In this document: positions 13,509-58,328 of the stretch, piece by piece | Layout: each line of letters starts with the position of its first letter | Position numbering within the stretch: position 1 is the first letter of the stretch | Assembly (NCBI RefSeq): GCF_001688725.2 | Contig: NZ_CP015401.2 | Coordinates: 186,001-250,000 of the forward strand | Reading direction: 5' to 3' | Origin: Bacteroides caecimuris | Lineage (GTDB): Bacteria; Bacteroidota; Bacteroidia; Bacteroidales; Bacteroidaceae | Length of the DNA: 64,000 nt | The notes under the pieces: generated by a model | What the model was told of the DNA's origin: nothing | Databases searched by the model: none | What the model saw: the letters and a program-made list of their open reading frames with translations, nothing else | Made by a program: the position numbers and the translations under genes

Positions 13509-13592
13509 ATAAGAACAAAAGAACATCTCAATCTTCAAATTCTATTTTATATCTATAAGTAGGATTTTAAAGAGATGTTCTTTTGTTCTTAT
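13509..13592. repeat. Long perfect inverted repeat, 21-bp arms
   Basis: Arms at 13509-13529 and 13572-13592 are exact reverse complements, with a 42-nt spacer. The site lies between the convergent rhodanese and argF' genes, so it may work as a two-way terminator. The large loop and the non-T-rich outer flanks are atypical of a terminator. Confidence 0.75.
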
Positions 13593-15969: not shown

Positions 15970-16193
15970 GTGAATGATGTGAATAAAACTAGTCGAAAAC
16001 AGAAATAAATGTTGCTTTTGTGGTGGTATGTCAATAATATATGGGGGGCTTGATATGGATGTAGTTCACAAATTCTATAAAATCCTGTATTTGTGTTGCA
16101 GATGCTTTATCTGCGATACATTATACAATCGAAGACAAGCTTTAGTTTCTGATACAATAATAAGCTGTTTTAGCCTATTCTGACAAAGGTTTA

Positions 16194-16277
16194 TTCTCAT
16201 AGCAGTGAGAAAATTTTCTCATAGTAATGAGTATTTTTTCTCATTACTATGAGAATTTTTTCTCATCGTGGTGAGAA
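16194..16277. repeat. Array of four palindromes with 22-bp period (TTCTCAT type)
   Basis: Four 18-nt units begin at 16194, 16216, 16238 and 16260, exactly 22 bp apart. Each is TTCTCAT, a 4-nt centre (AGCA, AGTA, TACT, CGTG), then ATGAGAA or GTGAGAA. The second unit ends ATGAGTA. The 4-nt spacers are A/T only. The array lies in the 465-bp proB-proA gap, downstream of the proB stop and upstream of the proA promoter. Apart from this array and the promoter, I see nothing else recognisable in 15970-16388. Confidence 0.9.
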
Positions 16278-41560: not shown

Positions 41561-41640
41561 AGGTGGTTTTTTCTTTCATAAAGAGGTGTTCTTCTTTTCG
41601 TAAGGAGGTGTTTTTCTTTTCGTAAAGACGAGTTTTTCTT
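41561..41640. repeat. Tandem array with ~22-bp period (CTTTTCGTAAAG type)
   Basis: Unit starts AGGTG/ACGAG are at 41561, 41584, 41606 and 41628 (steps of 23, 22 and 22). Each unit has a pyrimidine run and a small dyad: CTTT-CAT-AAAG, CTTTTCGTAAGG, CTTTTCGTAAAG. The fourth is partial. It is intergenic, upstream of argR. Confidence 0.85.
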
Positions 41641-41818
41641 TTCCATTCATGAGGAAATGCATCGGTGGGCCGGAAAAAATGTTTGGTGGTATGCCATTGA
41701 CGGGCGGCTGAATCCGTGGTGAAATAAACGTTAAGCTGTGCATAAAGAATATTAATTATTCATCCCGTATAGATATGGCTGTTGTAATGTATTTTTTCCG
41801 TCCGGCGCTGCTCCTTTC

Positions 41819-41879
41819 TCTCATTTTCCTCTCATCTTCGTATCCCCTTCGTTTCCCCTTCGTTCCCTCTTCGTTCTAG
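41819..41879. repeat. Tandem array with 11-bp period
   Basis: Successive 11-mers TCTCATTTTCC, TCTCATCTTCG, TATCCCCTTCG, TTTCCCCTTCG, TTCCCTCTTCG, then partial TTCTAGG. Each step is exactly 11 bp. It is strand-asymmetric (pyrimidine-rich on the plus strand) and intergenic, ~350 bp upstream of the DUF6266 gene. Confidence 0.8.
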
Positions 41880-52634: not shown

Positions 52635-54905
52635 ATGAAGGCATTTAAACTACTCGCACTTACTTCCTGCTTTTTACTTGCGACAGGAAGCGGAGTTGCA
52701 CAACGGGACTATTCAAAAAGTGAAGGACTGCTTCAGTATGTCGACCCTTATATCGGCTCCGGTTATCACGGGCATGTATTTGTAGGAACGAGCGTTCCTT
52801 ACGGCATGGTGCAGCTCGGCCCTAGCAATATCCATAAAGGATGGGACTGGTGCTCCGGCTATCATTATTCCGACAGCATCCTGATAGGTTTCTCGCATAC
52901 TCATCTGAGCGGTACGGGATGTACCGACTTAGGTGATATTCTCATTATGCCGTTGAATGAAATCCGTACTCCTAGAGGAAATCAGGATGATATACGTGAC
53001 GGCTACGCTTCCCGCTATTCGCACGATAATGAGATAGCCCGTCCGGAATATTACTCCTTACTTCTCGATCGCTATAATATCAGAGCGGAACTGGCGGCAA
53101 CAGACCGGGTAGGCTTCCATCGTTATACATACCCCGAAGGCAAGCCTGCTTCTATATTGATTGACTTGCGCGAAGGGAACGGCTCGAATGCCTATGATAG
53201 CTATATCCGTAAAATAGACGACTATACAGTAGAAGGCTATCGCTACGTAAGGGGGTGGAGCCCTTCCCGGAAAGTCTATTTTGTGCTGAAGAGCGACAAG
53301 AAGATAGAGCAGTTTACAGCCTACGATGATAATACGCCGAAACCCTGGGACCAACTGAAAGTAGCATCCGTAAAAAGCGTCCTCACCTTCGGCAATGTAA
53401 AACAAGTAAAGATAAAGGTTGCTATTTCTTCCGTTAGCTGTGCCAATGCAGCAATGAACCTGCAAGAAGAACTTTCTCACTGGGACTTTGACAAAACAGT
53501 AAAGATGAGTGCCGGACGATGGAATAAAGAACTTGCAAGAATGACAGTAGAGACGGATGATGAGGCTTCCAAACGTACTTTTTATACTGCGCATTATCAT
53601 ACCATGATTGCTCCTACGCTTTATTGTGACGTGAATGGAGAATATAGAGGGATGAATGATATGATTTATACTGACCCGAAGAAGGTCAACTATACCACCC
53701 TTTCTTTATGGGATACCTACCGAGCCCTGCATCCTCTGATGACTATCATCCAGCCTGAAATGGTAGACAACGTGGTCAACTCCATGCTTTCCATCTACCG
53801 CCAGCAGGACAAGCTTCCTATCTGGCCTTTGATGAGCGGTGAAACTAATCAAATGCCGGGTTATAGCTCCGTCCCTGTCATTGCCGATGCTTACCTGAAA
53901 GGATTTACCGGATTTGATGCGGAAGAAGCATTGCAGGCAATGAAAGCGACTGCCACTTATGAGAAACAAAAAGGAGTCCCTTATGTGATAGAGAAAGGAT
54001 ATATCCCTGCCGATAAAATCCATGAAGCTACCTCGATAGCCATGGAATATGCAGTAGATGACTGGGGAATTGCCGCCATGGCACGTAAAATGGGAAAGAC
54101 CGGAGATGCGGCAACTTACGCGAAACGTGCGCATTACTATAAAAACTACTTCGACTCTTCCATCCACTTCATCCGTCCGAAGTTGGAAGACGGTTCCTGG
54201 CGTACTCCTTATGACCCGGCACGTTCCATCCATACCGTCGGAGATTTTTGCGAAGGTAACGGCTGGCAATATACATTTTTCGCTCCGCAAGACCCGTATG
54301 GACTAATCGGGCTGTTCGGCGGTGATAAACCGTTTGTTGCAAAACTTGATGACTTTTTCACCAACAATGACAGCATGGGCGAAGGCGCATCCAGTGATAT
54401 TACCGGACTTATCGGGCAATACGCACATGGAAATGAACCGAGCCATCACGTCGCCTACCTGTATGCATATGCCGGCGAGCAATGGAAAACGGCAGAGAAA
54501 GTCCGTTTCATCATGGATGAATTCTATACAGACCGACCGGACGGTATCATCGGCAATGAAGACTGCGGTCAGATGTCCGCCTGGTATCTTCTTTCATCCA
54601 TGGGGCTTTATCAAGTGAATCCGTCGGACGGTGTATTTGTTTTCGGCAGCCCGTGTTTTAAGAAAGTCGAAATGAAGGTACGTGGTGGCAAGACATTTAC
54701 AGTTGAAGCTCCCAACAATAACAAAGAGAATATTTATATCCAGAAAGTTTATTTGAACGGTAAGCCTTATAATAAGAGTTATATCATATATGATGATATT
54801 ATCAACGGCAGCACTTTGAAGTTTGTAATGGGAAAGAAACCGAATAAGAATTTCGGCAAGGCTCCGGCAAACAGACCGGTTGCTTTGAATAAGATAAATG
54901 AATAA
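52635..54905 (+). CDS. GH92 exo-alpha-mannosidase
   Basis: 756 residues with a signal peptide (~1-22, ending GVAQ). Family 92 landmarks: YVDPYIGSGYHGHVFVGTSV, GFSHTHLSGTGCTDLGDI, NYTTLSLWDTYRALHPLMTI, GYIPADKIHEATSIAMEYAV, TGLIGQYAHGNEPSHHVAYL and NEDCGQMSAWYLLSSMGLYQ. GH92 enzymes are calcium-dependent inverting alpha-mannosidases that act on mannan side chains or N-glycans. It is periplasmic or surface-exposed. It is the leftmost gene of the mannan locus and faces right, away from rluA. Confidence 0.94.
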   Translation: MKAFKLLALTSCFLLATGSGVAQRDYSKSEGLLQYVDPYIGSGYHGHVFVGTSVPYGMVQLGPSNIHKGWDWCSGYHYSDSILIGFSHTHLSGTGCTDLGDILIMPLNEIRTPRGNQDDIRDGYASRYSHDNEIARPEYYSLLLDRYNIRAELAATDRVGFHRYTYPEGKPASILIDLREGNGSNAYDSYIRKIDDYTVEGYRYVRGWSPSRKVYFVLKSDKKIEQFTAYDDNTPKPWDQLKVASVKSVLTFGNVKQVKIKVAISSVSCANAAMNLQEELSHWDFDKTVKMSAGRWNKELARMTVETDDEASKRTFYTAHYHTMIAPTLYCDVNGEYRGMNDMIYTDPKKVNYTTLSLWDTYRALHPLMTIIQPEMVDNVVNSMLSIYRQQDKLPIWPLMSGETNQMPGYSSVPVIADAYLKGFTGFDAEEALQAMKATATYEKQKGVPYVIEKGYIPADKIHEATSIAMEYAVDDWGIAAMARKMGKTGDAATYAKRAHYYKNYFDSSIHFIRPKLEDGSWRTPYDPARSIHTVGDFCEGNGWQYTFFAPQDPYGLIGLFGGDKPFVAKLDDFFTNNDSMGEGASSDITGLIGQYAHGNEPSHHVAYLYAYAGEQWKTAEKVRFIMDEFYTDRPDGIIGNEDCGQMSAWYLLSSMGLYQVNPSDGVFVFGSPCFKKVEMKVRGGKTFTVEAPNNNKENIYIQKVYLNGKPYNKSYIIYDDIINGSTLKFVMGKKPNKNFGKAPANRPVALNKINE

Positions 54906-54961
54906 GAAGAACATAGTTTTCAATAGGTAATAGGATTCAGATAGTTGTTTGAACGTAGTTT

Positions 54962-55007
54962 TCAGTCCTCTTCCATAAGACTAACAGGTTTTATAGAAGA
55001 GGGCTGA
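54962..55007 (+). terminator. Probable terminator of GH92
   Basis: A perfect 12-bp pair (54962-54973, 54996-55007) with a 22-nt loop, 57 bp after the stop. The T-run is weak. Confidence 0.6.
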
Positions 55008-55118
55008 ATGTTATTAATGGAAACAATGGAATAGCGAATAGCGTTAAATATGTGCAAAGAGTTTGTACATAACTTGCTTGAATGTGATTGGCTGATTTCT
55101 CTTTGAGAATCCAAAAAT

Positions 55119-55173
55119 AAATCCTGCTTTCAAACTCTATTCTTTTCAGTGAATAGGGATGAGAGCAGGATTT
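55119..55173 (-). terminator. Terminator of the GH130 run
   Basis: Outer stem AAATCCTGCT/AGCAGGATTT (55119-55128, 55164-55173) plus an inner stem CTCTATTC/GAATAGGG. Minus-strand reading ends TTATTTTTGG. It lies 37 bp after the GH130 stop. Confidence 0.8.
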
Positions 55174-55209
55174 GTGTTTTCTATAACCGGCTGTTTGTTA
55201 TTTCATTGC

Positions 55210-56361
55210 TTATGGCAGCGGGTCAGCCTTGGCGGGGCGTTTCGGGTCATAAACGGCTACGCCTACCTTGGAGTCTGCACAGCCATAATACAAATACCAT
55301 TTGTTTTTGAAGTAAACCATTCCTTCGATAAAGACGGTGCCGTCTACATATTGCCCGCTTTTCTCGAAGCTGTCCATCGGACGGAAGAACGGTTCGTCAA
55401 GACGGGTGATGAAGCGGGTCGGTTCGTTGGCATCGAAAAGAGCTTGTCCGGCAGCATAGACGTTGGCGGTGTAGCGTTTGTCTCCTCTTCCCGCATGGTT
55501 CTTTCCGTTGTAGAGAAGGACGATCCCTTTTGGGGTGTAGATAGCCGGAGGTCCACATTCGGTCAGATGGCTGTCGAAATATCCGTCGCGGGGAGAGAAT
55601 AGTTTCTTTAGGGAGCCGTCTATGTTGACAACAGGCGTCCAGTTGATTAAATCATCGGAAGTGGCGGCAAATACATGTTCTTCGCCCCAGTACATAAAGT
55701 ATTGCCCGTTGATTTTCTTGATAAGCTGTTTTCCTTTTACTACTTCCGTCAGGATAGAGCCGGATTTGCATCCCAGGTTAAAGAATTTCCCGTTGTATGC
55801 TTTGGCAAAGGCAGGGCCGTGCTTTGTCCAGTCTTTCAGATTGCGGGAAGTGGCTACTGCCAGGCGGGGCACATGGCGGTTCCATTGCGTGTACATCATT
55901 ACATAAAGTCCGTCTTCTGTCACGGCAACTCGCGGGTCTTCACAGCCACCCGGCCATTCCAGTTCTTTTTGCGAATCATTGTCCGGATAGAACACCGGCG
56001 ACTTTTCCCGTTTGAAACGCGTGCCATCGGTAGAAGTGGCATAGCCGAGACGGGAAGTGCGGTGACCGATGCCGACACCGGACTTATCTTCTGAACGATA
56101 CAATACGACAATCTCCCCATTGTAGAGTGTGGCTGCCGGATTGAAGGTGTCATTCGATTCCCAGGCAATGGAATCTTTTGCCAACGGGCAATAAAACTTA
56201 GTGTTTTCTATGGGAGATATTACAGGATTGACGTTCTTCGGACGTTCGAAACCGCCGAAAGCCCAATCGGGCAATTTGTTCTCTTTGTTATTGGCAGACT
56301 GTCCGTAGGCGGTACAGGTCATCATCGTTGTAGCAAGTAGAAATAAAAAAGTTGATTTCAT
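55210..56361 (-). CDS. GH130 beta-mannoside hydrolase/phosphorylase
   Basis: 383 residues with signal peptide (~1-20, TCTAYG). Five-bladed propeller motifs: NPAATLYNGEIVVLYRSEDK, WPGGCEDPRVAVTEDGLYVM, GHRTSRLGYATSTDG, GYFDSHLTECGPPAIYTPKG. The secretion signal favours a hydrolase over a phosphorylase. GH130 members of this kind in Bacteroides mannan loci cleave beta-1,2-linked mannose as in Candida mannan. Linkage is inferred from family and locus. Confidence 0.9.
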   Translation of the reverse strand: MKSTFLFLLATTMMTCTAYGQSANNKENKLPDWAFGGFERPKNVNPVISPIENTKFYCPLAKDSIAWESNDTFNPAATLYNGEIVVLYRSEDKSGVGIGHRTSRLGYATSTDGTRFKREKSPVFYPDNDSQKELEWPGGCEDPRVAVTEDGLYVMMYTQWNRHVPRLAVATSRNLKDWTKHGPAFAKAYNGKFFNLGCKSGSILTEVVKGKQLIKKINGQYFMYWGEEHVFAATSDDLINWTPVVNIDGSLKKLFSPRDGYFDSHLTECGPPAIYTPKGIVLLYNGKNHAGRGDKRYTANVYAAGQALFDANEPTRFITRLDEPFFRPMDSFEKSGQYVDGTVFIEGMVYFKNKWYLYYGCADSKVGVAVYDPKRPAKADPLP

Positions 56362-56478
56362 AATCTATTAATTGGTTTATGAGGACAATTACTCCTCTAC
56401 ATATAAATTAAAAAAATAAAAAAATGCTGTCATCTGTCACATGATTAGATGCAAGTGCTTGATAATGCATGAGTTATT

Positions 56479-56529
56479 ATGTGACAGCATGATGTGATAG
56501 CAGTGTGACGACAACTGTTGCTGTCACAT
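56479..56529. repeat. Inverted repeat ATGTGACAGCA / TGCTGTCACAT
   Basis: Perfect 11-bp arms (56479-56489, 56519-56529), with further CTGTCA copies at 56426 and 56434. It lies in the 351-bp gap between GH130 and the GH125 remnant. Possibly a terminator or a regulator site. Confidence 0.6.
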
Positions 56530-56544
56530 TGTGTGTGCTTACGG

Positions 56545-56668
56545 GAAAAGAATTGTTTCCTTATTTGAAACCATAGTTTCAACGGTGAGAAACCATAGTT
56601 TCAGCAGTGGGAAACTGTAGTTTCAAAGGCTTGAAACTTTAGTTTCTATTGCTTGAAACTCTTGTTTC
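56545..56668. repeat. Array of palindromes with 22-bp period (GAAAC N4 GTTTC type)
   Basis: Five 14-nt units start at 56567, 56589, 56611, 56633 and 56655, exactly 22 bp apart: GAAAC, a 4-nt centre (CATA, CATA, TGTA, TTTA, TCTT), GTTTC. A looser unit (GAAAAGAATTGTTTC) sits one period earlier at 56545. The 8-nt spacers differ from each other. It lies in the gap downstream of the GH125 remnant and upstream of GH130. Confidence 0.92.
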
Positions 56669-56712
56669 CGAAGCATGAATCAATTATCTCATAGGCAAGA
56701 GCAGGGTAGGAA

Positions 56713-57147
56713 CTACCGGATACTGTTCAATAAGTCCACTTTTCCTTCGTTGACAAGTCTCAGGATTAACTCCCCGAACAGTGTATTCTGCCATGCAAAC
56801 CAGGAACGGGTGAAGTTTTTCGGGTCATTTTTATGGAAGGACTCGTGCATGAAACCTGTTCCGGCATCCGTGTCCATCAACATTTTGATGCAAGTCTTGA
56901 TTTCCGCATCGTTCTGGCTGGTGAACGCTTTCATCATAATGCTCATCGGCCAAATCATGTCATATCCGATATGCGGGCCACCGATACCCTCTCCGGCAGT
57001 ACCTTTGAAGAAGTAAGGATTATCCTCACTCCATACGAATTTGCGGGTATTCTGATAAATCGGGTCGTTCACTTTTACGTCTCCCAGATGTATGTTGGCT
57101 GTGCCCAAGAGTGCCATGGATAAGCAAAAGGCTTTAGTAATATTCAT
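56713..57147 (-). pseudogene. GH125 exo-alpha-1,6-mannosidase with internal in-frame deletion
   Basis: 144 residues from the ATG at 57147. A signal-peptide-like start MNITKAFCLSMALLGTANI is fused at ~57090 to the family C-terminus: GDVKVNDPIYQNTRKFVWSE, GIGGPHIGYDMIWPMSIMMK, TGFMHESFHKNDPKNFTRSW, WQNTLFGELI. GH125 enzymes are about 430-480 residues, so some 300 are missing, including the region expected to hold the general acid. The deletion is in frame, so a small secreted protein may still be made, without catalysis. Confidence 0.85.
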
Positions 57148-57166
57148 GGTAATAGTTTTTAATTGA

Positions 57167-58328
57167 TTAAATTTCGGCAAATAATTCGATGAGACAAGCA
57201 TTGTCGAGCAGCCATTTATACTGCTCTTCGTTGTGTCCCGACCAATCCCGGCCTAATAGTCCGTTTTCGTCCCGGTAACTTTCCCAGGCATGCACGGCAT
57301 TGTCTGCCATGGCATCGACATACATCGGATTCTTGTCAACTTTATACAGGGCTTTCAGTCCTCTGAATAAAATCACGTTGAACCACGCCATGTCTTTATG
57401 CACCTTGACTGCCGGGTCTTTCTTGTCGGCTTTTGTACGGAAAAATGCATCTGTTCCTGCGGCTGTCTGTTGTGCGTCGCGCAAGTACTGTTTGTCCCCT
57501 GTTTCCTCGTAAAGCAATACGCCCGCTTGAATCATCTGTCCGCTGTTGTAGGCATATTTGTCTTTGGAGATGTCTCCTTTCAGGTTGATATTGTCCCAGT
57601 AAAGGTGGTCGTCAGGGTCGCACAGATGCTTTTTCGTCCAGGCATAAGTCTCTTTCGCCTTTTCCAGATACCTGGCGTCTTTTGTCAGCCGGTACAGTTT
57701 GACACCGAGCACTGTCGACGGGGCGTTGGAACAAGTATGCTTCGCCTCTTTCTGCTGTTCGCACCAGAAGATGCCTCCCCCCCCCCATTTCATCGCTCCA
57801 TCCGCTGTAAATATATTGATACAGTGCGACGGCTTTCTTCAAATAAGCAGGCTTGTGCGTCAATTGGTAGTAGTCGCAGTAATCCAGTGCAATCCAGATG
57901 TTGTCGTCATAATAACGTCCGTGCTGCCCATACTTGGCAGGATACGACTGGTAGCAGGCTGGCAGGCGGCTTTCGTCCCAATACTGCTCCATTCCCGGAA
58001 GAATCCGCTTTTCGAGTATCTTTTTGTACTTTTTATTTCCCGTAGCTTTGTATAGCGCCACACAGCCCGACATCATCCCGGAATACGGCCATAGGAAAGA
58101 CGCTTTCAGCGTTCCGTTCTGTTGCGTACCGCCTGCCAGATAAGTGATTTTCTGGTCGGGATTGACGGGATACGTTTCTGTCAGTAGCCCGTCATTTGTC
58201 TGATACAGATTCAAGACATTATATAGAATCGAGTCGGCAATAGAAAGATAGCGGGCATTTCCTGGAGTCTTTCCTACTGCGGAAGTAAGGCAAAATAGCA
58301 TACAGGCTGCAAAACATATATTTCTCAT
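57167..58328 (-). pseudogene. GH76 endo-alpha-1,6-mannanase, frame broken at a G10 tract
   Basis: The start is the ATG at 58328 (signal peptide [19 protein letters not shown]). The first part contains [20 protein letters not shown] with the Asp-Asp pair typical of GH76 catalysis and runs to GWSDEMGGG. There the minus strand has ten G residues (plus-strand C10 at 57777-57786), and the frame shifts to end at 57612. The remainder ([20 protein letters not shown] through [12 protein letters not shown]) continues in the other frame to 57167. Nine or six G would give one continuous protein of about 386 residues. It may be a phase-variable gene, a true pseudogene or a sequencing error. Confidence 0.85.

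Follow-up and report, generated by a model that had tools for sequence, protein, structure and literature searches.

22-bp palindrome arrays in Bacteroides caecimuris lie within a probable MITE-like mobile element

Introduction

BrickBuilt of Porphyromonas gingivalis is described, in the available part of its report, as a minisatellite MITE that is intergenic, gene-free and present in ∼19 copies per genome (PMC4596501). It has a leader and a tail with inverted-repeat ends and a central short tandem repeat, the number of repeats varies between strains, and long stem-loops are predicted (PMC4596501). According to the same part of the report, a BLASTn search by its authors gave no match beyond P. 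gingivalis and P. gulae (PMC4596501). Also described there is MITE464/PgRS of P. gingivalis, a MITE with an internal 41-nt tandem repeat (PMC4596501).

The locus reported here is an array of short palindromes in a 64,000-bp stretch of the Bacteroides caecimuris genome (the window), which a first-pass annotation had assigned to no named element class. BrickBuilt, as far as the available account goes, is a named element of related design (PMC4596501). Like it, the present element is gene-free and intergenic, has a central tandem repeat and two flanking modules (one in the window), is present in a comparable number of copies and comes from the same bacterial order. However, the BrickBuilt repeat is given there as 23 nt long (AGAYCATARTATCCTCTCRTRTG), whereas the units here measure 22 bp and have GAAAC or TTCCC arms, its leader and tail differ from one another, whereas the ends here carry repeated words of several families, and its IS5-type ends (GAGACC..TTGCA) are not found here. 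Terminal repeats of the form GAGAC(C/T)NTTGCA were absent within 700 bp of all 13 GAAAC arrays of the genome, one occurred somewhere in 1 of the 18 TTCCC stretches, and the 118 arrays listed from other genomes had left ends in 0 cases and right ends in 2, with 2 and 2 in the wrong orientation. In a test for dyads, resolving the ambiguous letters of the BrickBuilt unit led to p=0.40. We class the element among the minisatellite MITEs, as a form distinct from BrickBuilt. MITE464/PgRS, going by the same partial account, is likewise a MITE with an internal tandem repeat and differs in its 41-nt repeat and its ends.

REP sequences (GTAG/CGTC tags), as characterized in the accessible part of the source, are likewise short intergenic palindromes that are often clustered, but those described here have no constant tag, keep a strict 22-bp period and are embedded in a larger insert (PMC3733652). 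The open-licence literature yielded no Bacteroides element of this design, which is weak evidence of absence. CRISPR arrays have partly palindromic repeats, variable spacers and an adjoining leader. The arrays described here differ from them in their 8-nt spacers, 14-nt dyads, many small loci and mode of insertion.

Results

The window array and its recurrence in the genome

The features of the locus are as follows.

55210–56361, minus strand: neighbouring gene, Glyco_hydro_130, outside the element
56394–56530, plus strand: W1 end module, with outer CTCTAC, an A-rich tract and GTGACAGCA-type words around an AT-rich middle
56395–56400, plus strand: CTCTAC, the putative outer border of the end module, from aligned copies and the queC–queF comparison
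56425–56440, plus strand: paired words TGCTGTCA-T-CTGTCAC, in columns largely invariant in the alignment
56481–56527, plus strand: direct words GTGACAGCA, GTGATAGCA and GTGACGACA and inverted TGCTGTCAC, from sequence and alignment
56545–56566, plus strand: loose first array unit, in phase, read from the sequence
56567–56668, no strand: five perfect GAAAC-N4-GTTTC dyads of period 22, starting at 56567, 56589, 56611, 56633 and 56655
56713–57201, minus strand: neighbouring gene fragment, C-terminal part of Glyco_hydro_125 (profile positions 305–414 of 414), outside the element

A scan for perfect dyads bore out the first-pass description of five units exactly 22 bp apart with a looser sixth in phase; a decayed unit follows the fifth perfect dyad at ∼56677. 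The array also stands out from shuffled sequence: a pattern of two dyads 22 bp apart has four overlapping matches in the window and none in each of 100 shuffles. The genome as a whole (4.84 Mb, one contig) contains 23 such matches in 13 loci and no match to the reversed control pattern. When up to three mismatches were allowed, there were 62 two-dyad matches genome-wide versus 3 for the reversed control, and the single motif GAAACTNNAGTTTC was found at 29 places versus 2 for its control.

A collection of 131 arrays was made up of the 13 in this genome and the 118 listed from others. Among the matches listed for these, and with one seed pair per locus removed beforehand, neighbouring dyads (at most one mismatch) were spaced by 22 bp in 154 of 182 cases. 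Within the same matches, the arms most often vary by an A-to-G change at position 2 or by the corresponding change in the mirror-image arm. Constant arms, varying centres and unrelated spacers had been claimed; the variation is as described, but the arms are not fully constant and the spacers, while variable, are non-random in composition. Beside the window array, the GH125 gene and the GH76 gene (57167–57793; profile positions 134–337 of 366) are both fragments and lie in a locus of the alpha-mannan type.

End modules accompany most arrays

A DNA search with the window locus showed that the block to the left of the array is likewise dispersed and is often accompanied by an array. In the window this end module is a 96.9-bit match to a sequence model, R1 (genome positions 242394–242530). 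Of 31 end-module matches, 27 were aligned (near-identical L190, L191 and L197 and one spurious match in L200 were omitted), giving a common W1 layout of CTCTAC, an A-rich tract, TGCTGTCAYCTGTCAC and ∼40 AT-rich bases, followed by GTGACAGCA, GTGACAGCA, GTGACGGCA and inverted TGCTGTCAC. Ten copies in the genome score 80 bits or more against model R1. Seven directly adjoin a GAAAC array. In an eighth (L012), a gene with transposase domains lies between end and array, which are adjacent in the relative L193. The remaining two are not paired with a GAAAC array.

Counted from the arrays, 11 of 13 GAAAC loci have a W1, W2 or W3 end, including the L012 end, 2 kb from the array past the transposase gene, and the L017 end, ∼400 bp from the array past another repeat. 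No known end was found at the GAAAC loci L013 and L018. Weaker matches to the model reveal the word families W3 (GTGAGGGCA/TGCCCTCAC) and, in a similar layout, W4 (ATGAGAA/TTCTCAT). A second arm family in this genome, TTCCC-N8-GGGAA, also with period 22, has 49 matches in 18 loci compared with 0 for the control. An end module was present in the fetched stretch at 17 of these loci (W3 in 8, W4 in 9), and one of the 18 has no known end. For both arm families together, an end module is therefore found at 28 of 31 array loci (13 GAAAC and 18 TTCCC), and the window element has a single one. As a background, 400 kb of sampled genome contained three end words, two of them next to 22-bp arrays. A generic detector of word-bearing ends returned one hairpin only in a 464-kb sample (window 13511–13590, both strands) and is too strict for counting, since it missed the window's own end. 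That hairpin is ∼80 bp long with arms AAGAACAAAAGAACATC.

Array flanks in other species share word-like repeats of a GGTGTAGG type (L027, L058) and a TGTGACAACC type (L043, L073, L113), which suggests further end families. In L258, a W3-like end accompanies 22-bp units built around TATTAATA. Four TTCCC elements (L275, L276, L280, L281) adjoin a near-identical AT-rich sequence, which may resemble an rRNA operon leader. Several elements (L017, L018, L254, L257) contain or adjoin another short repeat, the ends of which are of the type AACGTAAGTTCGATATAA; these ends resemble those of ISPg3/MITE239 as given in the available part of the BrickBuilt report (PMC4596501).

The array is the middle of an insert

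Between queC and queF (genes named by Pfam), an interval of ∼560 bp in this genome holds a W1 end, an array and a second, inverted end, which carries words of family W2 (GGTGATAGG, GGTGAAAGG) out to a GTAGAG-like border. The interval was examined in 23 of the 99 genomes from a queC–queF search. It is filled in 9, namely this genome, four relatives that align over the full length and 4 of 18 fetched relatives; it is altered in 2, which keep W2 words and have no dyad within one mismatch; and it is empty in 12, where the aligned gene parts are 14 to 139 bp apart with neither a dyad nor a word between them. Presence and absence at an orthologous site is a property of MITEs, and because the unit of end, array and inverted end is present or absent between queC and queF, the array is read as the middle of an inserted, MITE-like element. 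The array had been taken as isolated and free-standing, a description that we reject, since the queC–queF insert exceeds the array and ends occur at 28 of the 31 array loci.

The two queC–queF ends have in common only the outer border and the A/T tract. Elsewhere two W1 ends face each other, 515–778 bp apart, as the terminal inverted repeats of a MITE would, and an array lies between them in all five cases read (L194, L203, L268, L269 and L270). In a long class the facing ends span 2.7–2.9 kb. The copy in this genome (L010:3724–6450) encloses an array and a BT4734-like/VapE/DUF3874 gene, and five relatives (L263–L267) show a similar spacing. Since the relatives share this stretch, it may be a single ancient locus instead of several transposed copies; otherwise, the enclosed gene is a candidate cargo or partner of the element. 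Other BT4734-like genes were considered as partners and rejected, with an end word near 1 of 6 loci only (at 1003384). A role of the ends as terminator or insulator was likewise rejected, as the W1 end is T-rich on the outward strand and the W3 end is A-rich there.

Other 22-bp arrays in the window

Two further arrays in the window had been noted at 16194 and 41561. Their existence, 22-bp period and dyads were upheld, with coordinates from TRF and dyad probabilities relative to shuffled units.

16190–16266, no strand: 22-bp array with arms TTCTCAY/RTGAGAA (W4 letters), dyad p=0.023
41568–41643, no strand: 22-bp array with a weaker dyad, CTTT-N4-AAAG, p=0.02

Inspection by eye recognised no end module beside either of them, and a word search found no W1–W4 word there. 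An 11-bp tandem repeat, half of 22, lies near the second at 41836–41876. Period 22 is favoured, as TRF reported it for 12 of 21 intergenic rows of period 16 or more in the 464-kb sample (the window plus 400 kb), counting rows that overlap. In a unit-level dyad test, 3 of 11 22-bp arrays of other sequence beat shuffled units (combined p=0.14), the test being weak enough to give p=0.09 for GAAAC units alone and p=0.13 for TTCCC units alone. Period and dyad thus count as distinct traits. The proposed recurrence of period 22 with unrelated arms stands, but the dyad is not a rule for every 22-bp array of this genome, 8 of the 11 having none beyond chance.

Distribution in the Bacteroidales

A cross-species scan with one genome per species gave at least 118 array stretches outside this genome. 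Among the 118 listed, 114 are from Bacteroidales and 4 from other groups, two of which are metagenome bins; hosts among the matches listed include Bacteroides, Phocaeicola, Mediterranea, Prevotella, Parabacteroides and Porphyromonas. The two-dyad pattern was matched by 4 of 395 genomes drawn across the phylum and by 6 of 295 drawn across the order, where three families supplied all matches (6 of 10 genomes, compared with 0 of 285 elsewhere). Going by organism names, these families would be Bacteroidaceae, Tannerellaceae and Porphyromonadaceae. One genome has 63 two-dyad matches in 2.3 Mb. The pattern also occurs in six viral contigs (L159–L164), most of them seemingly unlike the chromosomal elements and some with the pattern apparently inside coding sequence.

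In Porphyromonas, TATTGCTGTCC lies to the left of the array and its inverse to the right in 4 of 19 testable arrays, with the left copy alone in 6, the right alone in 4, and the wrong orientation in 1 and 0. This pair of ends was found in none of the 87 other arrays among the matches listed and in none of the 13 in this genome. These Porphyromonas elements are the same array in another vehicle.

Change in orthologous arrays

Five sets of orthologous arrays were compared. Differences occur at 492 of 5,357 sites (9%) in the arms, 702 of 2,136 (33%) in the centres, 1,492 of 4,221 (35%) in the spacers and 2,468 of 10,126 (24%) in the flanks. These counts omit a doubtful orthologue, L015, which moves the arms from 9.1 to 9.2% and the spacers from 36 to 35%. 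Arms thus change about one-third to one-quarter as fast as centres and spacers, a contrast overstated to an unknown degree since the pairwise counts are non-independent and the units are recognised by their arms. The claim of a conserved dyad and spacing with drifting centres and spacers thus extends to orthologues. In the L192/L194 pair there is little difference (spacers 9%, arms 5%), and in the L011 pair nearly all sites are identical. The arms show few paired changes. Only the outermost pair has an excess, with 7 double changes (p=0.005), of which three are complementary, so it is the letters that are kept more than the pairs. The middle two bases of the centre are complementary in 80 cases versus 178 expected; perfect palindromes are therefore under-represented. 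Orthologues also differ by whole 22-bp units, and L190 has 66 bp, or three units, that the window array does not have. To that extent the suggestion of a slippage-driven spacer holds. Strict spacing can be passed on as units duplicate, with no need for selection.

Discussion

We consider it likely that the element is a non-autonomous, gene-free, MITE-like mobile element and that its dyads are kept as a sequence-specific module phased at two helical turns. A full copy has two inverted end modules, each with a CTCTAC-like border, an A/T-rich tract and a repeated short word, on either side of the 22-bp dyads. The end words are probably bound in trans by a transposase or a helper. As for the dyads, they would be sites of a dimeric DNA-binding protein, all facing one side of the helix at a distance of two turns, and the protein bound to them could shape the middle of the element or help to bring its ends together, while the units would multiply by slippage or unequal exchange. 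Because the dyads are kept letter by letter and show no clear strand, they resemble sites of such a protein more than an RNA structure. Counting against mobility, no transposase with these ends was seen at the loci examined and no new insertion was seen within one species; no clear target-site duplication was seen at queC–queF, where the flanks are too diverged.

The main rival is that the element is mobile and the array a neutral tandem repeat carried along by it, in which hairpin-templated repair and unit exchange recopy the arms. We regard this as rather improbable. The whole-unit differences between orthologues, such as the three units of L190, are what it predicts, unit turnover is reported for BrickBuilt in the available part of its description (PMC4596501), and 22-bp arrays without dyads exist. 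It does not readily account for the recurrence of identical arms and an identical period across three families of the order and across different vehicles, for the centres and spacers of the same units having escaped homogenisation, or for the avoidance of perfect palindromes at the centre, which templated repair would not favour. A quite different possibility, raised also by the first-pass annotation, is that the array acts as RNA, its transcripts folding into serial hairpins or one long stem and so marking or protecting transcript ends. Folding of the window array beats that of all 200 shuffles on either strand (z=−5.6 and −4.7), although this is expected of any such array. RNA hairpins would show G–U mismatches on the transcribed strand, but with one array per locus (11 arrays) the arms gave 12 G–T and 16 A–C (p=0.57). 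With orthologues included and two-ended elements excluded (25 arrays) the counts were 21 versus 39 (p=0.03), a weak lean toward the array-to-end strand, and with two-ended elements entering twice they were 30 versus 48. The stems of the end modules show 56 G–T versus 9 A–C on one strand, which is no more than suggestive, as two columns account for 32 of the 56 and a double change was seen in only 1 of 22 pairs.

Of the 13 arrays in this genome, 6 are between convergent genes, 7 between tandem genes and 0 between divergent ones (control intervals 25, 58 and 35; p∼0.01), but the avoidance of divergent pairs was unconfirmed in other genomes, where 18 of 88 placed arrays among the matches listed are divergent versus 98 of 359 in the control. 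No terminator-like site was found in 56362–56712, ten loci had no Rfam match at the gathering score, and window 54800–58000 gave sub-threshold, chance-level rows only. Together with the scarcity of paired change in the arms, this leaves hairpins or transcript-end protection with no clear support, and we think such a role quite improbable. More improbable by far are palindromes of the REP/BIME type moved by a REP-associated transposase. The palindromes are indeed intergenic and clustered, and 41 of 591 units have GTAG at their foot, where ∼14 would be expected for an average tetramer; however, 550 of the 591 lack the tag, CGTC is at the foot of 3, and the insert also holds long word-bearing ends.

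If the array is the functional module of a mobile element, as we favour, it could be one that is reused. The two-turn-phased GAAAC dyad array might then ride on unrelated MITE-like vehicles in three Bacteroidales families because some conserved protein of these bacteria recognises it, with the end words of the vehicles diversifying family by family; we offer this tentatively and judge it doubtful.

One genome thus contains 31 array loci of two arm families scattered among ordinary genes, with two unrelated palindrome alphabets and one common period. To our knowledge, few DNA-organising or silencing factors are known in this bacterial group. If a host protein reads the arrays, they would map its sites directly and offer a way to reach such a factor. 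If there is no reader, they would be a countable system for the life of minisatellites inside mobile DNA, and a caution for the annotation of terminators, small RNAs and regulatory sites between Bacteroides genes.
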